DNA from: Nocardiopsis kunsanensis DSM 44524 | GTDB lineage: Bacteria > Actinomycetota > Actinomycetes > Streptosporangiales > Streptosporangiaceae | DNA: 64,000 bases | Assembly: GCF_000340965.1 (NCBI RefSeq) | Contig: NZ_ANAY01000021.1 | Location: forward strand, 1 to 64,000 | Direction of reading: 5' to 3' | In this document: positions 10,485 through 37,735 of the stretch, in pieces | Position numbering within the stretch: position 1 is the first letter of the stretch | Layout: the number at the start of each line of letters is the position of its first letter | Made by a program: the position numbers and the translations under genes | The notes under the pieces: generated by a model | What the model saw: only the letters and a program-made list of their open reading frames with translations | What the model was told of the DNA's origin: nothing | The model's database searches: none

Positions 10485-12095
10485 TCAGACCTGGGGATAG
10501 CCCTGGCGCAGGAGCCCGTAGGTGACGGCCTGCTCCAGCGCCACCCAGGAGGCGTCGACGACGTTGGGCCCCGCGCCCACTGTCGTCCACTCCCCTACCC
10601 CGTCACTGAAGGTGATGAGGATGCGGGTGATGGCGTTGGTGCCCGAAGTGCCCTCGAGGATGCGGACCTTGTAGTCGGTCAGTTCCAGGCCGGCCAGCGC
10701 GGTGAAGACGTTCTCCATCGAGTTGCGCAGGGCGCGGTCCAGGGCGTTGACGGGGCCGTTGCCCTCTGCGGTGGCGATGATGCGCTCGCCCTTGACGGAG
10801 AGCTTCACGGTCGCCTCGGTCAGGCTCTCGTCGGCGCCGTCCGGCAGCCCCGCGCCCGAGGAGGGGCGGCGTTCGGTGATGACACGCCAGGACTCGGTCT
10901 CGAAGTAGCGCACCGGGCGGCCCATCTCCTCGAGCATGAGCAGTTCCAGGGAGGCGTCGGCGGCCTCGAAGCTGTACCCGGACAGCTCCAGTTCCTTGAC
11001 CCGCTCGACGACTCGTCCTGAGGCCGCCCGGTCATCGGACAGGTCCAGCCCCAGCTCCTGGGCCTTGAGTTCGACGGAGGCGCGCCCGGCCATGTCGGAG
11101 ACGAGCATGCGCATACGGTTGCCGACCAGCTCGGGTTCGGTGTGCTGGTACAGGTCCGGGTCGACCTTGATCGCGGAGGCGTGCAGCCCGGCCTTGTGCG
11201 CGAAGGCGGAGACCCCCACGTAGGGCTGGTGGGTGTCGGGTGCCAGGTTGACCAGGTCGGCGATGGCGTGGGCGACGCGGGTCATCTCCTCCAGGCAGCC
11301 TTCGGGCAGCACATCGCGTTCCTGTTTGAGGGCGAGGGCTCCGACCACGGAGAAGAGGTTGGCGTTGCCCACGCGCTCGCCGTACCCGTTGGCGGTGCAC
11401 TGCACGTGGGTGGCGCCGGCGTCGACGGCGGCGAGGGTGTTGGCGACCGCGCAGCCGGTGTCGTCCTGGGCGTGGATGCCCAGTCGTGCGCCGGTGGCTT
11501 CTGCGACCTCGGCCACGACGCGGGTGATGTCGGTGGGGAGCATGCCGCCGTTGGTGTCGCACAGAACGACGACGTCGGCTCCGGCACCGGCGGCGGCGCG
11601 GACGACGTCGAGTGCGTGTTCGGGGTCGTGGTGGTAGCCGTCGAAGAAGTGCTCGCAGTCGACGAAGACCCGCTGCCGGTGTTCGCGCAGGTACTCGACG
11701 GTGTCGGCGATCATGGCGAGGTTCTCGTCCGGGGTCGTGCGCAGGGCGCGCTCGACGTGCCGGCTGTCGCTCTTGGCGACGAGGGTGACGACCGGGGCGC
11801 CGCTGTCACGCAGGGCGGCCACCTGGGGGTCGTCGGCCGCCCGGACACCGGCGCGGCGGGTCGCGCCGAACGCGGTGAGCCGGGCGTGCTTCAGCGTCAG
11901 CTCTTGTCGGGCACGCTGGAAGAACTCGGTGTCCTTGGGGTTGGCCCCCGGCCACCCTCCCTCGATGAAGGCGACCCCGAAGTCGTCGAGCAGCTTCGCG
12001 ATGGCCAGCTTGTCCGAGACACGGAGGTTGATGCCCTCGCGCTGGGCGCCGTCGCGCAGCGTGGTGTCGAAGACGTGGAAACTGTCGTCCCTCAT
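10485..12095 (-). CDS. cimA: (R)-citramalate synthase
   Basis: A 536-residue member of the isopropylmalate/homocitrate/citramalate synthase family. The TIM barrel begins FDTTLRDGAQREGINL (residues 9-24). Metal-binding GIHAQDDTGCAVAN lies near residue 210, GNANLFSVVGAL near 245 and HKAGLHASA near 300. A C-terminal regulatory domain, with the LEGTSGTNAITRI segment, occupies about residues 400-530. The length and the FIEGGWPGANPKD motif fit CimA, which condenses pyruvate with acetyl-CoA on the threonine-independent route to isoleucine, rather than LeuA. It lies next to ilvE and leuB, and is controlled by an attenuator and a palindromic site upstream. Confidence 0.88.
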   Translation of the reverse strand: MRDDSFHVFDTTLRDGAQREGINLRVSDKLAIAKLLDDFGVAFIEGGWPGANPKDTEFFQRARQELTLKHARLTAFGATRRAGVRAADDPQVAALRDSGAPVVTLVAKSDSRHVERALRTTPDENLAMIADTVEYLREHRQRVFVDCEHFFDGYHHDPEHALDVVRAAAGAGADVVVLCDTNGGMLPTDITRVVAEVAEATGARLGIHAQDDTGCAVANTLAAVDAGATHVQCTANGYGERVGNANLFSVVGALALKQERDVLPEGCLEEMTRVAHAIADLVNLAPDTHQPYVGVSAFAHKAGLHASAIKVDPDLYQHTEPELVGNRMRMLVSDMAGRASVELKAQELGLDLSDDRAASGRVVERVKELELSGYSFEAADASLELLMLEEMGRPVRYFETESWRVITERRPSSGAGLPDGADESLTEATVKLSVKGERIIATAEGNGPVNALDRALRNSMENVFTALAGLELTDYKVRILEGTSGTNAITRILITFSDGVGEWTTVGAGPNVVDASWVALEQAVTYGLLRQGYPQV

Positions 12096-13760: not shown

Positions 13761-14819
13761 CTAGCCCTGCTCGGCCACCCGTGCGGCGAGGTCGTCGCCG
13801 ATACGGGAGGTGGAACGCTCCTCGTCGCCGCGGGTCCTGAGGTCGGCGGCGACGGCGTTCTCGACCTTGCGTGCGGCCTCGGGCATGCCCAGGTGCTCCA
13901 GCATGGTCGCGGCCGAGAGCACGGTGGCGGTGGGGTCGGCCTTGCCCTGGCCGGCGATGTCGGGGGCCGAGCCGTGCACGGGCTCGAACATGCTGGGGAA
14001 GGTGCGGTCGGGGTTGACGTTCCCGCTCGCGGCCAGGCCGATGCCGCCGGTGATGGCGGCGCCGATGTCGGTGATGATGTCGCCGAAGAGGTTGTCGGTG
14101 ACGACCACGTCGAACCGTCCGGGCTGGTCGACGAAGAACATCGATGCGGCGTCGACGTGGCAGTAGTTCACGGACACCTGCGGGTACTCGGCGGCGACCT
14201 CCTTGAGTACGCGCTGGTAGAGGTCGCCGGCGAAGGTGAGGACGTTGTCCTTGTGCACCAGGGTCAGCTTCCGGCGGGGGCGCTCGGCCGCCTTGGCGAA
14301 GGCGTAGCGGATGAGGCGTTCCACGCCCACGCGGGTGTTGACGCTGTCCTGGGTGGCGATCTCGTTGGGGGTGCCCTTGCGCAGCACACCGCCCGCACCC
14401 GCGTAGGGCCCCTCGGTCCCTTCGCGCACCACGAGCATGTCGATGTCCTCGGGGGCCACCCCCGCCAGCGGGGTGCGCACTCCGGGGAACAGGCGCACGG
14501 GGCGCAGGTTGACGTAGTGGTCGAAGTCGAAGCGGAGCTTGAGCAGCAGTCCGCGTTCCAGGACACCGCTGGGCACGGAGGGGTCGCCGACCGCACCGAG
14601 GTAGATGGCTTCCTGCTGGGCGAGCTCGGACTCGACCGATTCGGGCAGGGTCTCACCGGTGCGGTGCCACAGCTCGGCGCCGAGTTCGTACTCGGTGGTC
14701 TCGAACGCCAGGTCGTGCTGGGCCGCAACGGTGTCGAGCACCTTGAGGCCCTCGCCGACGACCTCGGGTCCGATCCCGTCGCCGGGGATGACGGCCAGTT
14801 TCACGGTGCGCGCTGCCAT
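13761..14819 (-). CDS. leuB: 3-isopropylmalate dehydrogenase
   Basis: A 352-residue member of the isocitrate/isopropylmalate dehydrogenase family. It starts [15 protein letters not shown] after MAART. Substrate and metal sites are visible: [12 protein letters not shown] (about residues 130-141), [11 protein letters not shown] (about 184-194) and [17 protein letters not shown] (about 236-252). NAD binding is at [19 protein letters not shown] (about 280-298). It oxidises and decarboxylates 3-isopropylmalate to 2-oxoisocaproate. The gene has a candidate operator 29 bp upstream and its own terminator, so it looks like a single-gene unit between ilvE and the accessory DNA. Confidence 0.96.
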
Positions 14820-15458: not shown

Positions 15459-15941
15459 TCACGTGGCCGCCCCGGCCGCCTCCGTCCGCACCACCGGCTC
15501 GGCCCCGCTGTCCCGGACCGGGGTCAGAACCCCCTCGCCGGCCCTCTCCGCCTCGGTCGGCCGTTGCGGCTCCGGGACCTCTTCCCTGGGCCCCTCGTGC
15601 CCGGGACCGTGTGTACGGGACAGGAACCCGGCCGCGTGCGACAGACGCTCCAGCAGCTCGTCCATGCGGGCCTCCACCTCCTCACGGTCGTCGGCGGCGA
15701 GCTCACCGCACTCCAGCCCCTGCCCGTCGATACTCATACGCCAGCTCCACACCTCCCGGCGCAGCCGGACCAGGTTCCGGGCCAGGTACACGACCGCGGC
15801 CAGGAGGGCCCCGTACACGGACAGTTCCGCCGCCTGCCACGGCCCGAGCGACCCGCGGAACAGGGGCAGGGCCACCGCTGCGAGCCCCGCCAGGAAGAGC
15901 GTCGGCGGCACCAGGGAAAAATGCGTTCGCAACAAATGCAC
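15459..15941 (-). CDS. small membrane protein with cytoplasmic helical tail
   Basis: 160 residues from a GTG at 15941 with GAGGAGG upstream. Two hydrophobic segments (LVPPTLFLAGLAAVALPLF, about residues 10-28, and LSVYGALLAAVVYLARNLV, about 41-60) form a hairpin in the membrane. A charged helical region RREEVEARMDELLERL-like (about 85-105) and an acidic/proline-rich C-terminus follow. It is the last gene of the operon, 28 bp after the upstream stop. Its layout mirrors that of the first gene of the operon (20761-21138), though the sequences are not clearly homologous. I do not recognise a family. It may anchor or organise the glycosyltransferases at the membrane; this is inference. Confidence 0.65.
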   Translation of the reverse strand: MHLLRTHFSLVPPTLFLAGLAAVALPLFRGSLGPWQAAELSVYGALLAAVVYLARNLVRLRREVWSWRMSIDGQGLECGELAADDREEVEARMDELLERLSHAAGFLSRTHGPGHEGPREEVPEPQRPTEAERAGEGVLTPVRDSGAEPVVRTEAAGAAT

Positions 15942-15969
15942 GAGTCCTCCTCGATCCTCTCCCGGTCCT

Positions 15970-17364
15970 TCAGCGAGGACCGGATCCGCGGCCCAGGACC
16001 AACCGGGCAGCGCGCCCGCGCGTGAGCGCACGGATCCGGCGTTCCCAGCGCTGCGCGTCCTCCTTCAGAGCCCTGGACTCACGGCGGGCCTGCCGGGTGC
16101 GCTCGTCCCCCTCCCGGGGCCAGGGCGGGGCTTCCTCCACCACCGAGTGCGATTCCGCCGTACACGCGTTCCACGGCGGTGCCGTACCCCCGAGCCCCGC
16201 ACCGGTCAGGCGCGCACGGGCGAGAGCGGCGGTACGTTCCCAACGCAGCTCGCCCCGTTTCCCGCACGGGACGGTCAGGAGCCCGGCCGCGCGTTCGTCG
16301 GCGGCGGCCGCCAGGGTGCTGAGCGCGTCGGGGGCCAGTTCGACCCCGGCCGGCAGCCAGAGACGGAAAGGCACCTCGGGCCCGGGTTCGGAAGTATGGT
16401 CCGCAAAACCCACGCGCGGTTCGTACCGGTAGAGCTCGCGCAGCAGCCGGACGGTCCCGGCCGTGGCGCGGTCCCGCGCGCCCCAGGGTCCCACGAGGGT
16501 GAGGACCAGGTCGGCGTCGTTGCTGTTGAGCAGGCTGTCGGCGGTGATGCGGACCTCTTCGGCGCTCACGTGGAAGGCGTCGACGACCACGTCCGTGAAG
16601 GGCACCTCCCACAGGCGTGCGGGCCGGGCCCGCCGTGCCGGGTGCCAGGGCACACGGTGTTCCAGTTCGGGGTCGCGGTCCGGGAGCGGGGGTTCGTCCG
16701 GGCCGTCGGTGCGGGCCTTCACGGTGGTTCCGGTGTCCTTCTCGGCCGGGTCCACCAGTTCGGTGCGCGGTCCCGGGACCAGAACAGCACCGAACTGGAG
16801 CATGCGGTGCAGGAGCTCCTCGGGCGCCCGTGTGTCGGCGACCCCGACCTCGGCGAGCAGGGCACGCGGGTGCGAGGCCGGTGCCTTCGGGTACACGTCC
16901 CGCAGCCGGTCGGGCCTCGGGCCGCCGGTGCCGGACTCGACCGTGGCCCGTCCCACGGCGACGGCGGCGTGTTCTGCCAGGTGGGCGCGTACGTGGCCGT
17001 CGACCTCGCTGCGCCGGGGCACGGTGCCGGGCCGGGCCAGCAGCACCACGTCACCCCCGGCCTCCGCCAGCCCCGCGCGGGCGAGCTCCCAGAGCCGGGC
17101 CGGGCCGGGCACCGTCAGGACCCGCTGTCCGGGCGGTTCGGGGTCGGTCGACGGCACTGTGGTGCACAGCAGGACGTCGAGGTCCCCGTCCGGACCGATG
17201 CGTTCCCGTACCCGCCCCATCACGTGCTCGAGCTCGCCCTCGTCGCCGGTGCCGGACGCGTCCGGCACCGGGATCACCACGGTCGCCCCGGGCCGGGGCC
17301 CCAGGGGCGGCAGCAGACCGTCCGCCCGTACCTCACGGTTCGCTGTCACGGCCACTCCCCTCAT
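15970..17364 (-). CDS. degenerate GT2-like protein (operon gene 4)
   Basis: 464 residues from an ATG that overlaps the preceding stop (ATGA at 17361-17364), so translation is coupled. An N-terminal Rossmann-like segment ATVVIPVPDASG opens the first half. A second GT-A-like half starts near FTDVVVDAFHVSAEEV, with LVLTLVGPWGARDR and RLWLPAGVELAPDALSTL. No DxD motif is evident in either half. A basic helix (TRQARRESRALKEDAQRW region) ends the protein. It shares architecture with the upstream gene, and the two look like duplicated, catalytically reduced glycosyltransferases. They could be a partner subunit or scaffold of the active GT2 enzyme. Function unknown. Confidence 0.7.
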   Translation of the reverse strand: MRGVAVTANREVRADGLLPPLGPRPGATVVIPVPDASGTGDEGELEHVMGRVRERIGPDGDLDVLLCTTVPSTDPEPPGQRVLTVPGPARLWELARAGLAEAGGDVVLLARPGTVPRRSEVDGHVRAHLAEHAAVAVGRATVESGTGGPRPDRLRDVYPKAPASHPRALLAEVGVADTRAPEELLHRMLQFGAVLVPGPRTELVDPAEKDTGTTVKARTDGPDEPPLPDRDPELEHRVPWHPARRARPARLWEVPFTDVVVDAFHVSAEEVRITADSLLNSNDADLVLTLVGPWGARDRATAGTVRLLRELYRYEPRVGFADHTSEPGPEVPFRLWLPAGVELAPDALSTLAAAADERAAGLLTVPCGKRGELRWERTAALARARLTGAGLGGTAPPWNACTAESHSVVEEAPPWPREGDERTRQARRESRALKEDAQRWERRIRALTRGRAARLVLGRGSGPR

Positions 17365-18773
17365 CCCAGGACCCGGCACCAGAACCGGCCCACGCGTGTG
17401 CGGGTGAGCAGGTCGAGCCGGCGCCGCAGCCGCCGTTCCCACACCCGCATCCGGGCCGCCTCGGTCTCGTGCTCGTGCAGGCGCTCCCATTTCCGGGCGC
17501 GCCGCTCGGCCCTCCTGTTCGACGGGGTGAGCAGGCGGGCCTGCCCGTCGATCCAGCGCACCGCGGGCCGGTGCAGGAGGTCGGAGGCGACGGGGTCGGC
17601 CCCGGAACACCGGTGGGCGGCGCGGGCCCGAGCGGCGGTGCGCTCCAACCGCGGTCCTCCGAGGTCGGACCCGGGCACGGTCGCGCGGACCACGTCTGCG
17701 CCGGAGCGCTGCGCCTCCTCGACCATCACCCGGGCCACGTCGGTCTCGGGCCGCAGGTCCCCGGGCATGCTGAGCACGAACGGGACGAGCGGGTCGGGTA
17801 CGGGTTCGCCCTCCCCCACCCTGATCCGCGGGTCGGCCCGGAAGTGCGCGCGCAGCTCCGACTCCATGGGCGATCCTGCTTCGGTCCTCAGGGTGATACG
17901 GGTGCCGCTGGTGTCCCTCTCCAGGAGGCGGTCCACGGTATCGACCACGGTGGCGCTGTCCGTTCCCGCGGTGTCCACGACGACGTGGGCCAACGGGACC
18001 CGCCAATGCGTGCCCGGGCGTTCGGCCCGTTCCGGTGAGGTCGGAACCCATTGGGCCACGCGTGCACGGGACAGCGGTCCGGCCCCGGCCTCCCCGTGCC
18101 GTGTCCTCGGTTCGTGCCGGACCTCGGGATCGGTGGCCGGGAGCGCGCCGTGCTGGAGCAGCAGGTGGTGCAGGATCTCCTCCTGGGCGGGGAGTTCGCC
18201 CCCGGCCGAGGCGGCGCACCCCTCCAGGACGGATCTGGGTGCCGAGGCCCCGCTGCGCAGGGCGCCCGGCCACAGGGGCCCGGTCCGCTCGTACAGGACC
18301 CGCCGGTCTCCTTCCGTCCCCTGCTCACCTTCCTCGTCCTGTTCGGTCGCCTCGGGTGTGCTGCACAGCAGGAGCCCGCGCACGTGGTGGTGGCCGCGCA
18401 GGTGGGCCTCCACGAAGGTCTGCGGTATCCGGTCCCCGGCTTCGAGCCACAGCACCACCGAGGGGTCCGCGGACGCGTCCGGAAGCAGTGCTCCGCCGTC
18501 CCCGGTCTCCACACGGGTGCGTTCGGGCCGGGCCCCGTCCGGGACGTGCACACCGGTGCCGCCGGCGACCGTGACCTCGGTGAGCGCGGCCGGATAGGTC
18601 TGTGCGGCCAGGTCGGCCAGGAGTGGGGCGGGATCGGCGCCGGCGTGTTCGGCCCGGACCACGACGTGTACGCCCAGTTCCGGTTCCCAGGTCCCCAGTT
18701 CGGGCAGGGACCGTACCGTCTCCCGGCCGCTCGGCACGACGGTGTTCCTCGCTTCCGGTGTGGATACACTCAT
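17361..18773 (-). CDS. degenerate GT2-like protein (operon gene 3)
   Basis: 470 residues. The start overlaps the upstream stop by an ATGA (18770-18773). The N-terminal half resembles a GT-A domain: ELGVHVVVRAEHAGADPAPL, ADLAAQTYPAALTEVTVAG (where real GT2 enzymes have an AQTYP..EVIVVDDG stretch) and VVLWLEAGDRIPQTFVEAHL in place of the usual acidic DxD line. A second similar half starts near RVPLAHVVVDTAGTD. The C-terminus is a long arginine-rich helix (RRAERRARKWERLHEHETEA). Catalytic acids are not obvious, so activity is doubtful. It is a paralogue of the next gene in the operon. Confidence 0.7.
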   Translation of the reverse strand: MSVSTPEARNTVVPSGRETVRSLPELGTWEPELGVHVVVRAEHAGADPAPLLADLAAQTYPAALTEVTVAGGTGVHVPDGARPERTRVETGDGGALLPDASADPSVVLWLEAGDRIPQTFVEAHLRGHHHVRGLLLCSTPEATEQDEEGEQGTEGDRRVLYERTGPLWPGALRSGASAPRSVLEGCAASAGGELPAQEEILHHLLLQHGALPATDPEVRHEPRTRHGEAGAGPLSRARVAQWVPTSPERAERPGTHWRVPLAHVVVDTAGTDSATVVDTVDRLLERDTSGTRITLRTEAGSPMESELRAHFRADPRIRVGEGEPVPDPLVPFVLSMPGDLRPETDVARVMVEEAQRSGADVVRATVPGSDLGGPRLERTAARARAAHRCSGADPVASDLLHRPAVRWIDGQARLLTPSNRRAERRARKWERLHEHETEAARMRVWERRLRRRLDLLTRTRVGRFWCRVLG

Positions 18774-20764
18774 CCGGCCTCCACCACTGGTCCGGTTCCT
18801 TCACGGACGGGTTCCGGCGCGCCCCAGGGCAGGGACGAGCAGGTGACCGGCGCATCCTTCGGGTCGGGCTCCAGCAGTGGGCTGGGGCGCCACCCGGGCA
18901 ACTGGCCCTTGCCCTCCCGGCGCAGGAAGTGGCCCGCCCCGACGGTCCACGTGTGGCCCTCGCTCTTGCGCCGTACCACGAAATTGCACCCGTGAGTGCG
19001 GTAGATGCGTCCGCCGGCCAGCTGCACCCCGGCCAGGCACTGGGAGTCGACCCCGCGGGCCAGCGGCCGGAACCCGCCGATCTCCTCCAGTACCCCCCGG
19101 TCGAGGAAGAGTGTGCAGCCGCTGGCGTGCTTCGCGGGTTTCTCGCTCTCCCCGGACAGGCGGACCGTGGTGTCCAGGGTCTCCAGGTAGAAGAACTCCG
19201 GGTCGGAGCCGACCAGATCGGCCCCGGAATAGGTACGTGCCGAGACCAGGTCGGCGAGGTGCTCGGGGCCGTACCAGTCGTCGTCGTCCATCTTGGCGAG
19301 CATGTGGCAGCTCGCCGTGCGCGCCGACCGGTCGAGCACCGTGCCCAGGGCGAGGGAAGGGTCGGGTTCGTGCAGGATCAGCTCACGGCCCGAGGCGCGG
19401 AACGCACGGATCTCCGCGGCGACCTCGGGGATCTTCCGGTCGAACCCGTGCAGTGCGAGCACGGTCTCGGTCTCGACCCCGCGCTGGCGTGCGATCTGGC
19501 GCAGCGCGAACCCGACCATCTCCGGGCGCCGGGTGCACAGGAGCACGGACACGGCCGGGCAGGTGTCGGTGTCCAGGCCCAGTTCGGCCCCCATGCGGCG
19601 CCACCGGGCCAGTGCGCCGTGTTCGCGCATGGCGGCCCGCCGGGTGCGGATGCTGTGGATCTCGCGTTCGTCCTCGTCGTCCAGGTCGGACATCCGCACC
19701 GACCGCAGACGGGCCAGGGTCTCCTGCCCCAGTCCGGTGGCCCAGCTCGGTGCGGGGCCGCTGACCAGCGGTACGCCGGCCGCGGCCAGGGCGGCCACGG
19801 CACGGACCGCTGCGAGCGGGCCGCTGTGCCGGCCCCACACGATCTCGACGGCGCGCAGGTCGCGGGCCCGGGCGATGTGCACGTCGGTCACTGTCCCGTC
19901 GCCGGGCACGCTCCAGCGCACGTTTTCCCCGACGACGAGGTGCCAACGCCCGTCGTGGTCCTCCAGAGTTCCGGTCACGGGTTCGGAGGTACGGGTGAAC
20001 CCGATGGGGTTGACGACCCGTTCGTCCACTGGGGGGACCTGGTCGGGGGCGGGCCGTTCGGGGACGTACGCGCCGAGGGAGCCGAGGTCTGCCCAGGATG
20101 CCTCTCCCAGGGGGGCGCGGCGGGTCCGGGGCGGGGCGTCCTCGGGCAGGGTGTACCCGGAGGCGGTGGTGTCGAGGATCGCGTCGACGTGTTCGGTGCG
20201 GTTGCTGCGCGCGTCTCCCGGCCGCCAGAGCCCGGCGTCGGGCCCCCGGACCGCCGCCAGTACGGGCAGGGGCCGCTCGCGCCGGCCTCCGACCATGCCG
20301 TGGGCCAGCGCCGAGACGACCGGGATCAGGGGGACGGGTGCCCCGAAGTACAGGTCGGCGGCCCATCCCTGGTCGCCTGCACGCCGTACTCGGGAGTCGA
20401 CGAGTTCGCCCCAGGGCCCGAGTCCGGGCAGGACGGGGAAGGGCGGGTCCAGGTGGGGTGCGGCCGCCGCGACGAGTACGACGATGCGCGCCGAGCGCGG
20501 GAACCCGGCGAGGTGGGCGGCGGCCCGGCGCAGGTCGGTGGGTGTGGCGGCCAGGAGCAAGGTGAGCCCGCAGGAGCGGGTACCGGAGGCGGCCGTCTCG
20601 CGCCGCACGTGCTGGACGGAGGCCGGGCGCTGGTCCAGGTCGTGGAACGCGACCTCCTCCGGCAGGTCTGCACCGTCGGGCCAGGCGCCTTCCCCGACGG
20701 TGCAGACCACGGTGCGCCCCGGCTCGCGTGTACGGAGTGCCTCCTCCAGCAGCGCCCGGATCAT
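18770..20764 (-). CDS. GT2-family glycosyltransferase (operon gene 2)
   Basis: 664 residues. The C-terminal half (about residues 415-625) is a recognisable GT2 domain: PAVSVLLCTRRPEMVGFALR, an LALHGFDRKIPEVAAEI strand region, and the metal/nucleotide-sugar motif MLAKMDDDDWYGPEHLADL. Acceptor-side blocks HASGCTLFLDRGVLEEIGGF and VDSQCLAGVQLAGGRIYRTH follow. The N-terminal about 400 residues hold another GT-like or Rossmann-like region with no clear motif. The ATG overlaps the upstream stop (ATGA at 20761-20764). It probably transfers a sugar to a cell-surface glycan or glycoconjugate; donor and acceptor are unknown. It is the only member of the operon with an intact catalytic signature. Confidence 0.78.
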   Translation of the reverse strand: MIRALLEEALRTREPGRTVVCTVGEGAWPDGADLPEEVAFHDLDQRPASVQHVRRETAASGTRSCGLTLLLAATPTDLRRAAAHLAGFPRSARIVVLVAAAAPHLDPPFPVLPGLGPWGELVDSRVRRAGDQGWAADLYFGAPVPLIPVVSALAHGMVGGRRERPLPVLAAVRGPDAGLWRPGDARSNRTEHVDAILDTTASGYTLPEDAPPRTRRAPLGEASWADLGSLGAYVPERPAPDQVPPVDERVVNPIGFTRTSEPVTGTLEDHDGRWHLVVGENVRWSVPGDGTVTDVHIARARDLRAVEIVWGRHSGPLAAVRAVAALAAAGVPLVSGPAPSWATGLGQETLARLRSVRMSDLDDEDEREIHSIRTRRAAMREHGALARWRRMGAELGLDTDTCPAVSVLLCTRRPEMVGFALRQIARQRGVETETVLALHGFDRKIPEVAAEIRAFRASGRELILHEPDPSLALGTVLDRSARTASCHMLAKMDDDDWYGPEHLADLVSARTYSGADLVGSDPEFFYLETLDTTVRLSGESEKPAKHASGCTLFLDRGVLEEIGGFRPLARGVDSQCLAGVQLAGGRIYRTHGCNFVVRRKSEGHTWTVGAGHFLRREGKGQLPGWRPSPLLEPDPKDAPVTCSSLPWGAPEPVREGTGPVVEAG

Positions 20765-21138
20765 GTGAGCACCTTCGGGTGGTCCTCGGTCTCCCCCCGG
20801 CCCCGGTGGGGGTCCTCCCGGCGCAAGGTGTCCTCCATCTCGCAGATGCGGTCGGCGATCTCCTCCGTGCGGCCGAGGAGTTCCATCCGCTGTTCCCCGG
20901 TGAGTTCACGGATCAGGCGCACGTTCCGGTCGAGACCGGCGCGCAACTGTTGGATCTGCCGGTTCGTGTGGCGCACCAACAGCGCCAGCACCACGGCCGA
21001 GACCAGAACCGTCGTGAACGCGAGCGCGCGGGCCGCCGCCCAGAAACCGACGAGTCCCGAGCCGATGAGGACGGCGGTTCCGACGAGAACCATTGCGGAG
21101 AGCAGCAGGAGCAGCTGGGCTGACCGTGAACGAGGCAT
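20761..21138 (-). CDS. small membrane protein with coiled-coil tail (operon gene 1)
   Basis: 125 residues from the ATG at 21138 (MPRSRSAQ). Two hydrophobic segments (AQLLLLLSAMVLVGTAVLIG and ALAFTTVLVSAVVLALLV) are followed by a cytoplasmic coiled coil rich in charged heptads (HTNRQIQQLRAGLDRNVRLI through EIADRICEMEDTLRRED). It heads the five-gene operon, and its stop overlaps the GT2 start. Upstream frames extend to 21285 but lack a better start. A membrane anchor or oligomerisation role for the glycosyltransferases is plausible but unproven. Confidence 0.68.
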   Translation of the reverse strand: MPRSRSAQLLLLLSAMVLVGTAVLIGSGLVGFWAAARALAFTTVLVSAVVLALLVRHTNRQIQQLRAGLDRNVRLIRELTGEQRMELLGRTEEIADRICEMEDTLRREDPHRGRGETEDHPKVLT

Positions 21139-21531: not shown

Positions 21532-22386
<855 letters not shown>

Positions 22387-22451
22387 GCGCTCCGCGGCCG
22401 CCGATCGTCGATCGGAGTGTCCCCGCGGGAGGTACTCCGGTCCGTGTCCAG

Positions 22452-23243
22452 TCACTTGCGCCTCACCGCGACCAGCACAGCGAGTGTGAGCAACACAGCG
22501 GTGAACACAGCCAGGACCGCCAGGTTGGCCAGCGCCGTTCCCGTGTCCGGGGGCGGGCTGAGGGGGCCCGTCAGCTCCCTGTTCGCCCACACGGCCCGCT
22601 CACCGAACCAGGCAGCCGCCGGATAACCCCCGACCGGGGACAGGAGTGTGCCGGTGGGGGTCACCAGCGGCAGTATCTGGGGCGAGGCGATAGTGGACCA
22701 CAACCAGACCCCCGCGGTGGCAACTCGGGCAAGGGTCAGAGGGAGCACCAGCCCCAAGAAACAGGCCAGCGCGGTCAGCGCGGCCGCACCCGGTACCAAC
22801 ACGGTCGTAAAGGCCGCCAGTGCGGCGGCCAACGGGCGCACACCACCGTCCGCCACGGCCGCGGGGACCACACACACCATCACCACCACGAGCGGCAGGA
22901 CCAGGGCAACCCCCAAAGACGCAACGAGCATCGCGGGCAACCGGAACCAAAGGCTGTGAGGGGTGGCGGCAGCGAGGTCCCCCATTCCGTGGCTCAGGCC
23001 CCGCACGAACCGGTCGGCCAAGGTCACACCGATACCCAAGGTGCACAGAATCCCCGTGATCAGGGCGGCCGCACCGACGTGGCGCACACCGCCGGTGATA
23101 TCGGAGGGCGCGCCCCAGGCGATTACCAACGACAGGAGCGACAACGGCACCAACACGGTCCACAAGGCGCGATGGCGCACCACCATGAGCGCCTCGTAGC
23201 GCAGGGTGCCGCCCAGAACCGGGAGCAGGGAAGAAGCCCTCAT
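22452..23243 (-). CDS. ABC transporter membrane protein (module A)
   Basis: 263 residues from the ATG at 23243 (MRASSLLPVLGGTLRYEALM), chosen over upstream starts because CGGAG lies about 10 bases before it. It has about six hydrophobic segments, for example ALWTVLVPLSLLSLVIAWG, HVGAAALITGILCTLGIGV and ALANLAVLAVFTAVLLTLAV. This is the layout of ABC-2 type permeases. Its stop overlaps a possible GTG start of the ATPase, and the two should form one transporter. The gene is divergent from the ECF sigma gene; the 150 bp between them is the likely regulatory region. Confidence 0.78.
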   Translation of the reverse strand: MRASSLLPVLGGTLRYEALMVVRHRALWTVLVPLSLLSLVIAWGAPSDITGGVRHVGAAALITGILCTLGIGVTLADRFVRGLSHGMGDLAAATPHSLWFRLPAMLVASLGVALVLPLVVVMVCVVPAAVADGGVRPLAAALAAFTTVLVPGAAALTALACFLGLVLPLTLARVATAGVWLWSTIASPQILPLVTPTGTLLSPVGGYPAAAWFGERAVWANRELTGPLSPPPDTGTALANLAVLAVFTAVLLTLAVLVAVRRK

Positions 23244-23392
23244 TCTCGTATTCACTCCGTTTTCACGTGGCCCTCGATGCGTCACCGCACCCGCCCCGAG
23301 GGCGGCACCCTGATCCAGTGACCGAGCTTACTCGGGGACCGTACTCGGGGCCTCGGTGGAGTGTCGGTCGCGCGCGAGTACGGTTTCACGTC

Positions 23393-24001
23393 GTGGAGGT
23401 GAACCCCACGGCGCGCAGACGCTACGTACAAGATGTGGAGATCGACACCGACGTGGACACCGAACACGGTCTGCTCGCCGACGTGGCCGCAGGGGACGAA
23501 TCCGCTCTGCGTGCCCTCTACGAACGGCACTCCGCTCCGATGCTGCGCTTGCTGCGCCGCCTGACCTCCGACGCCGGAGCCGCCGAGGAGCTGTTGCAGG
23601 AGAGCTGGCTCGCGGTCTGGCGCTCGGCCGCGACCTTCCGCGGGCAGTCGTCGGTGCGGGGGTGGCTGCTGGGGGTCACGCGTCGGCAGGCCCACAACCG
23701 GCTCCGTCGGATCGAGCCGGTCAGGGTCGCCCTGCACGCCGAAGAGGTACCGGAGCCGGCCGACCCCGGGGCGGACGTCGAGGCCGACGTGCTCGCCTCC
23801 GCCGGGCAGCACAGGATCCTCGAAGCGATCGGGGCCCTGCCGCTGCGCCACAGGGAGGTGGCGGCCCTGGCGCTGGTGGAAGAACTGCCGTACACCGACA
23901 TCGCCGAGAGCCTCGGCATACCCGTAGGCACGGTCAAGAGTCGTATGGCCAAGGCGCGGGCGCGGCTGTGTGCAGCGCTCGCCGAGGGACAGGTGAGTTG
24001 A
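23393..24001 (+). CDS. ECF-family RNA polymerase sigma factor
   Basis: About 202 residues from a GTG at 23393. The start is uncertain: another GTG lies at 23399, neither has a good ribosome site, and the mRNA may be leaderless. Region 2 is clear (ALYERHSAPMLRLLRRLTSD ... ELLQESWLAVWRSAATFRG, with GWLLGVTRRQAHNRLRR). Region 4 is at the C-terminus (LPLRHREVAALALVEELPYT and IPVGTVKSRMAKARARL). There is no extra C-terminal domain. It is followed one base later by a membrane anti-sigma gene. In known actinomycete lanthipeptide clusters such as microbisporicin and planosporicin, an ECF sigma/anti-sigma pair controls production and immunity; this pair may do likewise. Confidence 0.9.
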   Translation: MEVNPTARRRYVQDVEIDTDVDTEHGLLADVAAGDESALRALYERHSAPMLRLLRRLTSDAGAAEELLQESWLAVWRSAATFRGQSSVRGWLLGVTRRQAHNRLRRIEPVRVALHAEEVPEPADPGADVEADVLASAGQHRILEAIGALPLRHREVAALALVEELPYTDIAESLGIPVGTVKSRMAKARARLCAALAEGQVS

Positions 24002-24002
24002 C

Positions 24003-24938
24003 ATGCCACATCTGAGCGAGGGAGAGGTCCTTCAGGCCGCCCGTGCAGACCGAGGGACAAAAAAGCACCCGGACGGCCTGTCCGAGAAGCGGTGCTCACA
24101 TCTGCAGACATGCGCCTCGTGCTCCGCCCGTGTCTCGGGGATGCAGAACTTCGCCTCAGCTCTGCAAGCCTCCGAACCCGAGGTGCGAACACCCTCCTTC
24201 GACGACCTGATCGCGCCGGCGCTCGCCGCGGAGCGCGCGGCGCCCGCGAAGGTGTCCGGGCCGACCGCGCCGTCTCTCACCTCTGGAGGGGCGGCCCGAC
24301 TGGTCGGCACCCTGGTGATGCGCCAGGCCAAGCTCGTCCCGGTGTCGCTTTGGCCGATGACGGCCGTGGTTCTGGCCGCGCTCTTCGTGTTCGCCGCGCA
24401 AGCACCCGACCCGTCCGTCGGCGCGGCCTTCTTCGGGCCCGTAGCCACACTGCTCACCACAGGGACGGCCCTGGCCGTGTGCTCCCCGAAGAGGGATCCC
24501 AGGTCCGAGATGCTGTACACGATGCTCGTACCTCCGGCGGCAGTGTGGCTGGCGCGGCTGGTACTGGTGACGGGCACTGTATTGGCGGCCTCCGCGCTGG
24601 TGTCGGCGGCCTCGGCCGCCGTGTCGGGTTCCCCGCAGGCCGCCACCGCGCTGATCGCCTCCTGGTTGGGGCCCGCTGTCCTGGGCGTGAGTACGACGGT
24701 GTTCGGCACGGTATGGTACTCGCCCGCAATGGGTGCGGTTTTCGGGGCGGGGTCCTGGCTTATGAGCGTGTTCGCCGCCCGAGGCGCCGCATCGTTGGGC
24801 CCCTTGCCGGCAGGCATGCGGGATACGATCGGCGCCCTGTGGTCGACCACTCCGCTGAGTCTGCTGATCTCGTCCGCGCTGCTGGCCGCAGCGACGTGGC
24901 TGGTCTCGCGCCCGGAGCAGTCGCTGCAAGGGAGGTAA
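24003..24938 (+). CDS. anti-sigma factor fused to a multi-pass membrane domain
   Basis: 311 residues. The cytoplasmic N-terminus holds a short zinc-binding anti-sigma-like motif, HLQTCASCSAR (about residues 33-43, H-x3-C-x2-C). About 60 linker residues follow, then about six membrane segments such as LWPMTAVVLAALFVFAAQAP and LLISSALLAAATWLV. Ordinary anti-sigma factors have one membrane helix; here the membrane part looks like an ABC-2 permease. The ATP-binding gene 32 bp downstream has no other partner, so this protein may be both sensor and permease of that transporter. It is co-transcribed with the sigma gene. Confidence 0.75.
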   Translation: MPHLSEGEVLQAARADRGTKKHPDGLSEKRCSHLQTCASCSARVSGMQNFASALQASEPEVRTPSFDDLIAPALAAERAAPAKVSGPTAPSLTSGGAARLVGTLVMRQAKLVPVSLWPMTAVVLAALFVFAAQAPDPSVGAAFFGPVATLLTTGTALAVCSPKRDPRSEMLYTMLVPPAAVWLARLVLVTGTVLAASALVSAASAAVSGSPQAATALIASWLGPAVLGVSTTVFGTVWYSPAMGAVFGAGSWLMSVFAARGAASLGPLPAGMRDTIGALWSTTPLSLLISSALLAAATWLVSRPEQSLQGR

Positions 24939-24970
24939 CGCTCGAACGACTCCGGGGAAGGAACGACGGC

Positions 24971-25831
24971 ATGCGTGTCGTGGTCACAGGCCTGTCCCAT
25001 TCCTACCGACACCGTCGCGTCCTCGAGGGTGTGGACCTCGAGTGCGGCCCCGGGGCCATGGGGCTCCTCGGGCCGAACGGCGCCGGAAAGACGACTCTCC
25101 TCCGGTTGTTGGCGGGCGTGCTCCGGGCGAAGTCCGGGTGGATCCAGGCCGGCAGACACGATCTGCGCACGCGTGCGGGCCGCCGGGCGCTCCGGCGCGG
25201 ACTCGGTTATCTTCCCCAGGACGTCGCTCTCCCTCCGGACATGTCCACGCGCGATTTCCTGGACTACGTCGGGCTGTTGAAAGGGATGGCCGATCCGCAC
25301 GAGCGCCGACGCCAGACCGCTGAAATGGTCGAACACCTGGGGCTGGACCTGGTGTCGGACCGCCGGTTGGGAACGCTCTCCGCGGGGACGCGCCGCCGGG
25401 TGGGGGTCGCCCAGGCCTTCATGGGCGACCCGGGTCTGGTCCTGCTCGACGAGCCCACGTCGGGTCTGGACCCCGAAGAGCGCATCCGCTTGCGCTCGGT
25501 GCTCGGGATGCTTGGCGGGGACCGCACCGTGATCCTGTGCACGCACCTCTTGGAGGACGTGACCGCGGTCTGCCCGGAGTTGGCGGTCCTCCACGCCGGC
25601 CGGGTCGCCTACTCCGGCTCGACGAGCGGCCTCAGAGAGATCGCGACCGACCGCACCTTCGAACTGCCCCGGCCACCGGCCGGCGAAGGCTTCGGCGACC
25701 TCGGCCCACCCCGCCGAGAACGCCTGCTCACCGACTTCCCCCCGCCCGGGGCCCGCCCGGTCACTCCGAGCGCAGAAGAGGGCTATGCCGCGCTGATGCA
25801 CGATCTGCGCGGGGAACCTGTGGCGTGGTGA
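24971..25831 (+). CDS. ABC transporter ATP-binding protein (module B)
   Basis: 286 residues from the ATG at 24971 with AAGGAA upstream; the same frame is open far upstream but overlaps the anti-sigma gene. Walker A is LLGPNGAGKTTLLRLLAG, the signature is LSAGTRRRVGVAQAFMG (a GTR variant of the usual GG), and Walker B is LVLLDEPTSGLDPEE with the switch His in CTHLLEDV. The C-terminal PSAEEGYAALMHDL matches the paralogue at 21532. It likely works with the membrane domain of the anti-sigma fusion just upstream. Confidence 0.88.
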   Translation: MRVVVTGLSHSYRHRRVLEGVDLECGPGAMGLLGPNGAGKTTLLRLLAGVLRAKSGWIQAGRHDLRTRAGRRALRRGLGYLPQDVALPPDMSTRDFLDYVGLLKGMADPHERRRQTAEMVEHLGLDLVSDRRLGTLSAGTRRRVGVAQAFMGDPGLVLLDEPTSGLDPEERIRLRSVLGMLGGDRTVILCTHLLEDVTAVCPELAVLHAGRVAYSGSTSGLREIATDRTFELPRPPAGEGFGDLGPPRRERLLTDFPPPGARPVTPSAEEGYAALMHDLRGEPVAW

Positions 25832-25921
25832 TTCCACCGGACAACGGGCGGAAGTGAACCTCCGGGGCGGTACACGCTACGTACCTCTGTGCCAACGGAA
25901 CATGTCGGAAGTGAGACGACC

Positions 25922-26725
25922 ATGTCGATGCCGGAGCCCCGTGTACGGTCGGCCGAGTCTGCACGCGACTCCCCCTCCCTCGTCCTGCTCTTGTCGCTCG
26001 CGCTGGACCGGCTCCGCTGGGGGCTATCTCTGTGGACCACCCTGGCCACACCTGTGGCTCTGGCGGCGCTGTTCGCGGTTGCGGTGTTCATCGGCGCGGG
26101 ACGTGGCCAGGAGGAAGTGTGGGACCACTGGTTCGGCCTCACGTTGTACATCTGGGCCGTGCTGACGCCCATGCTCGCCGCGCTCTACGCCGTTGGCGCC
26201 GACCAGGCCGACGAAAGCGCCAAGCGCGTCATGTACACCTACGCATTCCCCCGCCGCCGACTCCTGTTCGCTGACGTTCTGGCGCTCATGGCCCTCTGGA
26301 CGGTGTCGGCCCTGATGCTCGCCGCCCTGATCGCCGCAGCCGCCCTCGCCAACGACACCCCCGGAGACGCAGGAACGGCTTTCGCCGGTGCCCTCATGCC
26401 GGTCCTGGCTGCTCTGCCGACCCTGGTGCTGTGCGTGCTCGCCACCGAGGCCTGGGGCGTCGCGGGGGCTACATGCGTCGGCGTGGCCGGGACGCTCTTC
26501 GGGGCGCTGGCCGGGGACAAGGTCTACTGGTGGGTCTTCCCGCCAGCCTGGCCCACGCGCGGGGTCATCCCCATCGCGGAGAACCAGGGCCTCGCTTCGC
26601 TCGATGCCGCCGGCGTCCCACTGCTCTCACTCTCCGTGCTGCCCGTGATCGGGATCGCGGTCCTGGGGCTCAGCGGGGTGCTGTTGGCTGTGGGCGCACT
26701 CTACGTCGACCGTCGGGAGATCTGA
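25922..26725 (+). CDS. lantibiotic-immunity type ABC permease (LanE-like)
   Basis: 267 residues from the ATG at 25922. Six hydrophobic segments, with family landmarks DHWFGLTLYIWAVLTPMLAA and VMYTYAFPRRRLLFADVLAL. The second permease downstream has the same length and matching blocks (GIWFSVTLLFWGMFLPM, VVYAYAFPRHRLLIGRFLAL), so the two are a duplicated pair. Two related permeases followed by one ATPase is the LanFEG arrangement. It removes a lantibiotic from the producer's membrane. It is 90 bp downstream of module B on the same strand. Confidence 0.82.
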   Translation: MSMPEPRVRSAESARDSPSLVLLLSLALDRLRWGLSLWTTLATPVALAALFAVAVFIGAGRGQEEVWDHWFGLTLYIWAVLTPMLAALYAVGADQADESAKRVMYTYAFPRRRLLFADVLALMALWTVSALMLAALIAAAALANDTPGDAGTAFAGALMPVLAALPTLVLCVLATEAWGVAGATCVGVAGTLFGALAGDKVYWWVFPPAWPTRGVIPIAENQGLASLDAAGVPLLSLSVLPVIGIAVLGLSGVLLAVGALYVDRREI

Positions 26726-26838
26726 CCGATGGCGCCACCGGAGGGAGGTTTCCGGTCCCCGCCCCAGGCCCCGGAGGCGGAACCGACCGTCACCCCGAAT
26801 GCCGTTCCCCGGACACCACGACGAAACGAGGAACACCG

Positions 26839-27642
26839 ATGACCGCTACCGGATCCGACCGCATCTCTGCCCCGACGATACGCGACGATCCGTCGCTCGC
26901 GACCGTCGTCGCCGTGGAGTGGGAGAAGCTCCGACGGGGTTTCTGCCTCTGGCTCTCCCTCGCCCTGCCGTTCGTACTGATCCTGCCCCTGGGGCTGATC
27001 GCCGCCTTCTCACCCGAGGGACAGGCCGGTGACGTGTGGGGCATCTGGTTCAGCGTCACCCTGCTTTTCTGGGGGATGTTCCTGCCGATGGGCGCGGCAC
27101 TGTACGCAGCCATGTCGGTACGCGCCGACCTGGACTCCCGGCAGGTGGTATACGCCTACGCCTTCCCCCGCCACCGACTGCTCATCGGCAGGTTCCTGGC
27201 CCTATTGCTGCAGTGGGCGGTGAGCGCACTGCTGCTCACCGTACTGCTGGCGACGGTCGGTGCCCTGCTCATCGGCCCGGAGGCGGCCTTGCCCGTACCT
27301 GCAGGGGTTCTGGTGCCCTGGCTCGGAGCCGCGGCGACGCTCGCGCTGTGCCTCATGATGGCCGAGCGCTGGGGCACGGGGCCCACCGCTGTGGTCGGGG
27401 TCCTCGGGATGCTGCTGGGCGGGATCATCGCAGACACCTCCGCGTGGTGGTTCGTTCCCATGGTCTGGCCCATGCGCGCTGTGGTTCCGCTGGCCGGTAT
27501 CGAGGCCAACGGGGTTCCTCTGGAACCCGGCGACCCGCTCTTCTCGACGGCACCTCTACCCGTGGTCGTCGTCCTGTCCTTCACCCTGTCGATCGTTCTG
27601 CTCGCCGCAGGGGCCCGTCACGTCAACCGCAAGGAGCTCTGA
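26839..27642 (+). CDS. lantibiotic-immunity type ABC permease (LanG-like)
   Basis: 267 residues from the ATG at 26839, with GAGGAA upstream. It has six membrane segments and ends RHVNRKEL, like the preceding permease's YVDRREI. It begins a coupled pair with the ATPase: its stop is immediately followed by the next ATG. The homologous pair plus one ATPase should give a heteromeric immunity transporter. The assignment of LanE versus LanG to either permease is arbitrary. Confidence 0.82.
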   Translation: MTATGSDRISAPTIRDDPSLATVVAVEWEKLRRGFCLWLSLALPFVLILPLGLIAAFSPEGQAGDVWGIWFSVTLLFWGMFLPMGAALYAAMSVRADLDSRQVVYAYAFPRHRLLIGRFLALLLQWAVSALLLTVLLATVGALLIGPEAALPVPAGVLVPWLGAAATLALCLMMAERWGTGPTAVVGVLGMLLGGIIADTSAWWFVPMVWPMRAVVPLAGIEANGVPLEPGDPLFSTAPLPVVVVLSFTLSIVLLAAGARHVNRKEL

Positions 27643-28359
27643 ATGCCGTCGGCACTGCGCGTCAACGCGCTCACCAAACACTTCGGTTCCCACGCTGCGC
27701 TGCAGGGGGTGGACCTCGACGTCGCCGAGGGCGAGGTCTACGGGCTGTTGGGACCCAACGGGGCGGGCAAGACCACTCTGATGAAAGCAGTGGCCGGCCT
27801 GCTGCAACCGGATTCGGGGACGCTGGAAGTGGCGGGCCGCCCTTTCACCCGTGACTCCCTGCGGGGGATCGGCGCGCTCGTCAACGGCCCGGGGTTGTGG
27901 TCGCGGATGAACGCCCGGCAGCACATACGAGCGCACGCCAAGCTGCGCGGGGTCGACCCCGACGACGCGGTGGCCCGTCTGCTGCCGCTGGTCGGCATGG
28001 ATCAGATCGCCGACCGCCGGGTGTCGGCCTATTCGCTGGGCATGCGCTGGCGGCTCGGCATCGCCATCGCCATGGTCGGCTCCCCCCGTCTGCTCGTGCT
28101 CGACGAACCGACCAACGGCCTGGATCCCATCGGTATGCGTGAGATGCGTGCACTGATGCGCCGGGTGGCCGAGACGGGTGCGACCGTGTTCGTCTCCAGC
28201 CACCAACTCGACCAGATCGCCCGCACGTGCGACCGGGTGGGCGTGCTCGTGCACGGCCGGAACTGCTACGAGGGCCCCCTGTCCGGCCTCGCACGCGACG
28301 GCGACCTGGAGGAGGGCTTCTTCGCGCTGGTGGAGCAGACCTCCAGCGGGGTCCGCTGA
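27643..28359 (+). CDS. lantibiotic-immunity type ABC ATPase (LanF-like)
   Basis: 238 residues starting directly after the permease stop. Walker A is GLLGPNGAGKTTLMKAVAGL (about residues 36-55). The Q-loop region GIGALVNGPGLWSRMNARQ lacks the usual Gln: immunity ATPases of the LanF/MutF/BcrA family carry an E-loop in place of the Q-loop, but no clear Glu is seen here. The signature is AYSLGMRWRLGIAIAM, Walker B is LLVLDEPTNGLDPIG, and the switch His lies in SSHQLDQIA. Size and neighbours fit LanF. It ends the rightward run and is convergent with the lanthipeptide biosynthesis remnants. Confidence 0.88.
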   Translation: MPSALRVNALTKHFGSHAALQGVDLDVAEGEVYGLLGPNGAGKTTLMKAVAGLLQPDSGTLEVAGRPFTRDSLRGIGALVNGPGLWSRMNARQHIRAHAKLRGVDPDDAVARLLPLVGMDQIADRRVSAYSLGMRWRLGIAIAMVGSPRLLVLDEPTNGLDPIGMREMRALMRRVAETGATVFVSSHQLDQIARTCDRVGVLVHGRNCYEGPLSGLARDGDLEEGFFALVEQTSSGVR

Positions 28360-28381
28360 ACGGGCCCGGCCGACCATGACG

Positions 28382-28439
28382 CGGCCCCCGCGCGATCCGG
28401 TGCTTCGCCTTGCGAGTACTGGATCCCCGCGGGGGCCGT
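28382..28439. terminator. bidirectional terminator between converging units
   Basis: Outer arms CGGCCCCCGCG/CGCGGGGGCCG with an inner GATCC/GGATC stem. It separates the rightward LanF-like gene from the leftward lan remnants. Confidence 0.65.
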
Positions 28440-28450
28440 GCTCTTGCGCC

Positions 28451-28998
28451 TCAGCTCGGGGACAGAAGCTGCGAGACCGCCAGGTCCCGGTAGAGCTCGT
28501 CACCCGCGACGAGCTCCTCGTGCGTTCCCACAGCGCGCACCCGGCCGGTGTCCATCACCACGATCCGGTCCGCGTTGGTCACCGTCGACAGCCGGTGCGC
28601 GACCACCATGACCCCCGCATCCCGTGCTGCGTCCTGCACGACCTCCTTCAACGCGGCCTCGTTGGCCGCATCCAGTTGCGAAGTGGCCTCGTCCAGCAGC
28701 AGCAATCGCGGTTTGCGCAAGAGCGTTCGGGCGATGGCGATTCTCTGCTGCTCGCCCCCGGACAGCGTGGTGCCGCGGTAACCCACACTGCTGTCCAGGA
28801 CGTCGGGCATGCGTGCGACCAGTTCGGTGAGCCTGGACCGCGCGACCACCTCCAAGAGCTCCTCCTCGGCAGGTACCGCTCCCAGCGTTCCGGTTCGAAC
28901 CACGCCATGTTGCCCTCGAGCCAGGCCAGTGCGGCGTCGACGTCCAGGCGGCGGGCTTCGGCCGTGCGGATCCCCCCGCCGCCGGCGGTCGCACTCAT
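28451..28998 (-). pseudogene. truncated LanT-like ABC exporter
   Basis: Only the C-terminal half of an exporter nucleotide-binding domain remains, about 155 residues. It runs from [20 protein letters not shown] through the signature [16 protein letters not shown], Walker [17 protein letters not shown], switch [13 protein letters not shown] and the terminal [13 protein letters not shown]. Walker A and all membrane helices are missing. A coupled start at 28998 (ATGA overlap with lanD) opens a different frame, [19 protein letters not shown]..., that runs about 35 codons and then meets the ABC segment out of frame near 28885. This looks like a deletion that fused an unrelated N-terminus to the tail of an exporter gene. 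It cannot make a working transporter. Confidence 0.85.
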
Positions 28999-29576
28999 CC
29001 CTGTTCCCGCCCGTCCGAGGAAGGTGCCAAGTGGCGGAGCAATTCATCGGGGGTGGGCGGCGCCAAGCCCGGCACGAGCGCTTTGGCGGCAACCTCGTAA
29101 GCGGTGCAGTCCCGCGGTTCGAGGACTGCGTTGCCGTCCTCGCGCAGTTGGGCCGCGTTGCGCTGCACCGAGGGCTTGCGCCACATCACCGGGTTCATGG
29201 CCGGAACGAAGTCCACCGGCTGCTCGGAGGCCAGCAGAACCGACGTGAGCAGGCTCGGGGCGAGGCCTTGAGCGGCACAGCCGAGTACGTGAGCAGTGCA
29301 GGGCAGAACCACCACACGATCGGCCCAACGCCCCAGAGCGACGTGCCCGGGCCCGTGCTCCACGTCGGTGTAGACCCCGTCGCACAAGGCACGCATACTC
29401 TGTTCCGCCACCAGCCCTTCCGCCGTCCGGGTCAGGACTGCGGCGATCCGCTGGACCCCCGCAGTCCGGAAGGCGTACAGGTAGGACGGCAGCGTGACCG
29501 CTGCGATCGAACCGCTCACCCCGACCAACATCCGTTGCGGAAGCAGGCCCGGACCGTTCTCAGTTGCGTTGGTCAT
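28995..29576 (-). CDS. lanD: LanD-type flavoprotein (cysteine decarboxylase family)
   Basis: 193 residues of the homo-oligomeric flavin-containing Cys decarboxylase family. [20 protein letters not shown] (residues 17-36) binds [23 protein letters not shown] (about 78-97) carries the family His, and [16 protein letters not shown] (about 125-140) is the PxMN substrate-clamp motif. In lanthipeptide pathways it oxidatively decarboxylates the C-terminal Cys to make an aminovinyl-cysteine ring. The gene follows lanC by 26 bp, and its stop overlaps the next start. It appears intact although lanB and the exporter are broken. A CoaBC-like housekeeping role is unlikely from size and context. Confidence 0.88.
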
Positions 29577-29602
29577 TCATCACGCTTTCTCGTCGGATGG
29601 TT

Positions 29603-34045: not shown

Positions 34046-34206
34046 AACGTTTCCTTTTCGAGTGGTGCGACCCGACCGCGCAGGTAACGGCCCTGCCCTG
34101 ATCGGGTGTGACGGCCGCAGGGAAGTCTACTAGGGGGGTCGGAAAGGCTGAGGGGGGTTCCCCCCTGAAACCGGGTTCCACCCGCCTCACCTCAGCAGGA
34201 ACGCAA

Positions 34207-34243
34207 CAGCGCCGGGGCGGATCGGCGACCCGCCCCGGCGCTG
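34207..34243 (-). terminator. ilvBNC terminator
   Basis: 14-bp perfect arms CAGCGCCGGGGCGG and complement with a 9-base loop, 40 bp past the ilvC stop. It closes the ilvB-ilvN-ilvC operon before serA. Confidence 0.8.
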
Positions 34244-34282
34244 GGGAACCTGTACCGGGGGCCCTGCCCGCCGGTGGGGGGA

Positions 34283-35278: not shown

Positions 35279-35351
35279 TTGGGGTTACTCCTTGTTCTTG
35301 ACGTGTTTGTCGGGGACGCGAGGCTCGGGACCCCTGTTCGGGCCCCGTCGC

Positions 35352-35876: not shown

Positions 35877-35894
35877 GGTGGTGCGGTGCTCCTC

Positions 35895-37655: not shown

Positions 37656-37735
37656 CTCAAGATCCTTCAGCGAGGGTTCAGAGCGCTCGGAAGCTCTGGA
37701 CCGTGGTGGATTTCGACTCACGTCCTTGCGGCAAT

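Follow-up and report, generated by a model that had tools for sequence, protein, structure and literature searches.

Organisation of the five-gene unit

The window analysed here is a 64,000-nucleotide stretch of Nocardiopsis kunsanensis DSM 44524. Its minus strand carries a unit of five genes, A to E, at positions 15459–21138, with the open reading frames where the original prediction had placed them. Gene A (20761–21138) encodes a membrane anchor of 125 amino acids with two hydrophobic stretches and a charged tail, and gene B (18770–20764) a glycosyltransferase (GT) of 664 amino acids with the sole intact GT2 site among the three GT-like proteins. Genes C (17361–18773) and D (15970–17364) encode two-domain GT-like proteins of 470 and 464 amino acids that have lost their catalytic residues, and gene E (15459–15941) encodes a second anchor of the A family. 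The sequence ATGA is found at the A/B, B/C and C/D junctions, as had been claimed; these overlaps suggest coupling of the genes, but not the equal expression that had been read from them. The D/E junction has no overlap, and a short gap separates the D stop at 15970 from the likely GTG start of E at 15941. Because this GTG is the likely start, E is probably 160 amino acids long and shorter than its 190-aa open reading frame. Searches of Pfam and NCBIfam gave no match above the curated cut-off for any of the five proteins.

The downstream neighbour of the unit is a gene at 13761–14819 (minus strand, cluster c24), which we take to be of the leuB type from gene order and size, and a leuA gene identified with Pfam lies at 10485–12095. 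In relatives, the upstream neighbours are genes of the serA, ilvC, ilvN and ilvB types. Their presumed equivalents in the window, labelled likewise from gene order and size, occupy 32456–37721 (minus strand, clusters c13–c16), about 11 kb from A. Positions beside serA or leuB are called the serA/leuB slot below; the contigs of N. salina and N. xinjiangensis end before leuB, the unit of N. coralli has no called leuB after it, and serA of the window lies about 11 kb away. The intervening region (21532–32342) holds genes absent from most of the compared relatives, among them an ABC ATPase (PF00005) and, at 23267–24001, a sigma factor. A single ABC-type gene was called between A and serA in N. salina.

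Glycosyltransferase B

When the window protein is aligned with 49 of 98 full-length relatives, the metal motif KMDDDDW of B (Asp 493–496; 19277–19288, minus strand), located by alignment and sequence, as well as D573 and H604, prove invariant or conserved to at least 90%. By analogy with GT2 enzymes, D573 would be the base and H604 the conserved His. The predicted model of B (pLDDT 88.3, pTM 0.90) has a GT-A fold, and its domain at residues about 402–628 (18881–19561, minus strand) lies near many GT2 enzymes, with VIA-align Z scores up to 18.9 for residues 402–608; the comparison effectively covers the protein from residue 402 onward. The wall teichoic acid enzymes TarS (Z 17.9), RmlT (Z 17.7) and TarP (Z 17.2) are among the similar structures, as are many other GT2 enzymes. 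Against Pfam PF00535, B scores 13.7 bits with a cut-off of 23.3, and a B paralogue reaches 23.5. The nearest relative in the comparison is the B protein of N. xinjiangensis, which is 86% identical.

Membrane anchors A and E

Both A and E show hydrophobic peaks compatible with two helices, weaker in E, which agrees with the two-helix membrane proteins proposed for the first and last genes. In a search of only about 48 proteins, an HMM built from 31 short anchors, including close relatives of A and excluding the window's own anchors, gives A an E-value of 6e-23 and protein E one of 6e-10, which places the two in one family by profile similarity. With a threshold of E < 1e-3, the same HMM also detects 24 of 43 methyltransferase fusions by their N-termini, so that the A family recurs elsewhere as the N-terminus of these fusions. 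At L053:1559–2755, for example, a Methyltransf_24 domain is fused to an A-type anchor at the head of a second cassette, and O-methylation of a glycan is possible there. The methyltransferase fusions might conceivably be connected with madurose (3-O-methylgalactose), a marker sugar of related families; a literature search on madurose genes found nothing. The window unit has no methyltransferase, and several cassettes of Nonomuraea and Planobispora also have short anchors without one.

The set of five genes is not constant. Of 14 serA/leuB loci compared, just three have E, although the contig of N. xinjiangensis stops too early to show it. In N. salina, E overlaps a further B gene, which suggests that E belongs as anchor to a second anchor-B unit, the B partner being absent in the window. 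A search for a remnant of this second B after E in the window and in N. coralli gave no significant tblastn match (best E 0.16).

Fold and relationship of C and D

Chondroitin polymerase of E. coli K4 (K4CP) has two active sites. The family of C and D, called CD here, resembles it (PDB 2z86, 2z87) in having two tandem GT-A domains, and a CD profile matches it over both domains with E 8e-31. The AlphaFold model of D (pLDDT 81.5, pTM 0.76) consists of two tandem GT-A domains that superpose on K4CP with Z 18.8 and rmsd 4.2 over 355 residues, followed by a C-terminal helix and a basic tail. For C, the two tandem domains are assigned from the alignment only. The CD family differs from K4CP in its second domain, which mostly lacks the DxD and often reads PFRLxxPAG at that position; a D.D occurs somewhere in the inspected stretch in 21 of 165 proteins. 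C and D, moreover, lack the first site as well, and the helix and basic tail form a further difference.

The original prediction described C and D as a duplicated pair without catalytic acids. The absence of the acids stands. The two proteins share 28% identity over 383 columns, but gene position and tail type give each a separate catalytic counterpart in other species; a recent duplication of one from the other is rejected on these grounds. Judged in this way, C and D are two old paralogues whose sites were lost in parallel. The CD tree separates C from D on long stem branches (1.97 for C, 1.59 for D), and the deep position of the two stems is poorly supported (33/86; 52 of the 165 CD proteins in the tree).

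Distribution of the cassette

B was found in 177 of 297 sampled Streptosporangiales genomes and 32 of 62 genera (E ≤ 1e-60), and in 17 of 396 phylum-wide genomes (E ≤ 1e-20), the window's own among the 17; three (phylum) or four (order) candidates were scored per genome, and copy numbers are lower bounds. Within the genus, B was matched in 35 of 36 other genomes, the exception being G016 (85% complete). The best 80 of 250 loci belong to Nocardiopsis, Streptomonospora, Nonomuraea, Planobispora, Microtetraspora, Sphaerisporangium, Streptosporangium, Actinomadura and others. Of 84 loci chosen for holding B, with some duplicates among them, 77 contain a member of the anchor/methyltransferase family, and in most of the loci CD genes lie next to B. 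Genes of the relatives come from a codon-model caller, which may misplace starts and miscall short genes; in Nocardiopsis sp. MG754419 it called no anchor.

Possible in-frame starts with a 4-nt overlap occur at 12 of 13 anchor-B, 20 of 20 anchor-CD and 98 of 108 B-CD junctions, as raw counts uncorrected for background. Overlaps are less uniform at methyltransferase-B (13/35), CD-CD (8/17), CD-B (17/41) and CD-anchor (1/5) junctions. These counts leave out five loci, namely three duplicates and the non-duplicates L039 and L071. In the window unit, the A-family anchor, B and the CD genes are adjacent and co-oriented. By this neighbourhood comparison, the unit is a local form of a Streptosporangiales cassette consisting of an anchor, often fused to a methyltransferase, B and two-domain CD proteins, and its parts have many linked relatives there. 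What sets the window unit apart, as far as the sequences tell, is not the cassette itself but that C and D have lost catalysis.

Nocardiopsis has two places for the cassette, of which the serA/leuB slot is that of the window. The second carries an AT3-SGNH acyltransferase, an anchor-methyltransferase fusion, B, CD, B and CD; it has the same B and CD families, with an intact catalytic signature in those of its CD proteins that were scored, but its acyltransferase and methyltransferase domains have no equivalent in the window unit. The serA/leuB slot of Streptomonospora nanhaiensis carries a methyltransferase fusion (L063). In the genome of the window, the second locus is split over two contig ends (L039, L135) and comprises the acyltransferase, the methyltransferase fusion, B and a catalytic CD that keeps GGD and WHLG up to the contig end. 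A stand-alone intact CD also lies at L134:8762–10471 (G000:C10). Since both proteins keep the motifs, catalytic CD proteins are, by sequence, still present in the cell. Unlinked single-gene homologues, named in the original prediction as evidence against a joint machine, thus exist for the CD family and not for the cassette; with an intact, unlinked CD in this very genome, the family is not obliged to act together with B.

Several loci contain repeats. A tandem B array at L040:5296–11236 (genome G020) has a repeat of 2854 columns at 99.75% identity, and milder central repeats between adjacent B genes in L046, L047 and L060 reach 82–88% with differing ends, which suggests recent duplication or gene conversion. 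The locus L064, titled Glycomyces fuscus TRM 49117, holds a CD that is sister to that of N. alborubida (100/100) and is possibly mislabelled.

Loss of catalytic residues in the serA/leuB slot

At the former DxD site, C reads LEAGDR (EAGDR at 18429–18443, minus strand) and D reads LARPGT (ARPGT at 17023–17037, minus strand), both located by alignment and sequence. The four scored positions for the DxD, the base and the His of the first domain are EGE- in C and RGPD in D, and all five scored positions are changed in both window proteins. This agrees with the earlier claim that only B keeps a metal motif, and intact catalytic residues in all three GT-like proteins, which would have spoken against it, were not found.

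The DxD, base Asp and His are kept in 156 of 165 CD proteins of 400–650 aa, a count that leaves out three duplicate loci, one doubtful 409-aa label (L065) and 16 labelled genes outside this length range (two of these in duplicate loci and two at contig edges). The signature is intact in 141 of 142 proteins outside the serA/leuB slot and in 15 of 23 inside it, which gives losses of 8/23 vs 1/142 (Fisher p 3.5e-07, shared ancestry ignored). It is missing from nine proteins: both C and D in the window, in N. coralli and in N. salina, the C protein of N. xinjiangensis, one of the two CD proteins in the S. nanhaiensis slot and, as the only case outside the slot, a metagenome-assembled Hamadaea sequence. 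D of N. xinjiangensis also reads LARPG, and its sequence is cut by the contig end.

The loss in C and D is common to the four sister Nocardiopsis species, which form one clade at 100/100. In N. alba, the protein in the D position is truncated in the first domain and that in the C position is intact. The C-position protein of Nocardiopsis sp. MG754419 lacks the first domain and keeps the second domain and the tail, and it is followed only by a short tail-like ORF. Since N. alba, MG754419 and S. nanhaiensis group apart from the four-species clade in a tree whose branching is partly open, catalysis appears to have been lost in the slot in at least three lineages.

Constraint on C and D

To N. xinjiangensis, YN00 gave for C a dN of 0.109 and a dS of 0.504 (ratio 0.22), for D 0.106 and 0.588 (ratio 0.18, 226 codons), for B 0.067 and 0.552 (ratio 0.12) and for serA 0.015 and 0.325. 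The NG86 ratios are higher (C 0.36–0.49, D 0.30–0.80, B 0.26–0.38). E is poorly conserved, with 34–44% identity and an NG86 ratio of 0.58–1.06. In a neutral simulation built from fourfold sites, the observed changes at codon positions 1 and 2 of C and D were about one third of those simulated, and none of 500 runs was as low in either of two species pairs; for the window and N. xinjiangensis, the simulation overshoots third-position changes (123 vs 90 observed for C), and the factor there is nearer two. The frames of C and D are open in the four species, for N. xinjiangensis D up to the contig end. Stop-free frames arose in 24–61% of neutral runs, and an open frame alone is a weak signal. By dN/dS and the simulation, C and D are maintained under constraint despite the lost catalytic residues, and pseudogenes since speciation are not favoured. 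On the other side, the first domain of D shows little codon-position bias between the window and N. xinjiangensis (20, 34, 45), and the long stems of C and D also fit relaxed constraint.

The domains were compared with seven catalytic counterparts of each protein, picked by position and tail. The first GT-A domain of C and D is 25–26% identical to them (72–76% among the seven), the second domain 40–42% (68–69%) and the coil before the tails 23–28% (51–61%). The basic C-terminal tail of C (17394–17426, minus strand) reaches 51% (73% among the seven) and exceeds the former catalytic domain in conservation. The tail of D, RWERRIRALTRG (16015–16050, minus strand), is common to the catalytic counterparts, and its identity of 73% nearly equals the 77% among them. 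On these figures, the parts distant from the active site, the coil excepted, are better kept.

Proposed role of the unit

The reading we consider the most probable, with reasonable though not high confidence, is a glycosyltransferase unit anchored in the membrane, with B as its sole catalyst and with C and D as maintained pseudo-glycosyltransferases serving to scaffold B or to present its acceptor. A would tether the unit to the membrane at its inner face, a topology that we infer, and B would use a nucleotide donor to add a sugar to an acceptor linked to the membrane, such as a lipid-linked or teichoic-acid-type glycan; the complex itself, the sugar, the acceptor and hence the product are presumed. 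C and D would be K4CP-like two-domain GT-A proteins without sugar transfer, probably inactive yet maintained partners of B, whose second domain and basic tail would serve as the scaffold. It would fit this role that the second domain and the tail outlive the first domain, both in MG754419 and in the identity pattern.

Comparable pairs are known. Human CHSY-CHPF joins an active GT to a GT-fold partner that mainly stabilises it, CHPF stabilising CHSY3 (PMC12748766), and C and D may act on B in the same way. A CHSY3-CHPF1 chain is among the Foldseek matches of D, as a weak hit (TMq 0.23, rmsd 26.7). However, the animal heterodimer consists of related proteins, whereas B and C/D belong to different families with separate membrane anchors. 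In GtfA-GtfB, the Gram-positive adhesin glycosylation system, one GT transfers and the other is a chaperone and substrate binder (PMC8498110). It acts on a Ser-rich repeat protein, and the likeness considered here is that of the roles within the gene pair. Teichoic acids of Nocardiopsis are described in PMC6801904, with no apparent link to the window genes.

Alternatively, C and D could be what is left of an ordinary, slowly decaying GT pair, with an operon redundant to the second locus, and only B would then matter. We regard this as unlikely, though it is the strongest of the alternatives. The parallel loss in both genes, the long stems and dN/dS values above that of B would fit such decay, as would the shortening and deletion in N. 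alba and MG754419 and the second locus with its acyltransferase, methyltransferase fusion, B and catalytic CD. It is opposed by the frames kept open in the four species (D of N. xinjiangensis to the contig end), by position 1 and 2 changes at about a third of the neutral expectation in both pairs, and by second domains and tails better kept than the first domain. A role of C and D as regulators or glycan-binding sensors for the second locus instead of scaffolds for B is improbable: catalytic paralogues of both families do exist in the genome, but the overlapping starts tie C and D to B, and Pfam and NCBIfam gave no regulatory domain at cut-off. Least probable of all is that C, and perhaps D, is still active through a metal-independent or rearranged site, as a metal-independent GT6 enzyme is described in PMC3961637 and C retains part of the acidic stretch (window LEAGD, N. 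coralli VDAGD, N. salina MDAGD), a Glu at the base position and, in three of the four clade members, the donor-site Asp, but all five scored positions differ in window C and D.

Within one family and one slot, a bacterial series would run from the catalytic GT to the point-mutated pseudoenzyme and the deleted catalytic domain, and simple gene removals along it would make the reason for keeping inactive GT partners, as in CHSY-CHPF, testable. More tentatively, and with the balance somewhat against it, dead-enzyme scaffolding may arise repeatedly at the serA/leuB cassette of Nocardiopsidaceae, two-domain polymerases losing catalysis again and again while retaining, as subunits, their second domain and basic tail, so that a machine with one enzyme and inherited scaffolds would replace an assembly of three enzymes.

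No description of this cassette, common in Streptosporangiales, often with a methyltransferase-fused anchor and situated beside core metabolic genes, was found in the literature searched, which left out most subscription papers. Such neighbours identified with Pfam are a homoserine dehydrogenase and a PLP decarboxylase in L089, a PALP enzyme and a GHMP kinase in L090, and a class-II aldolase in L086.
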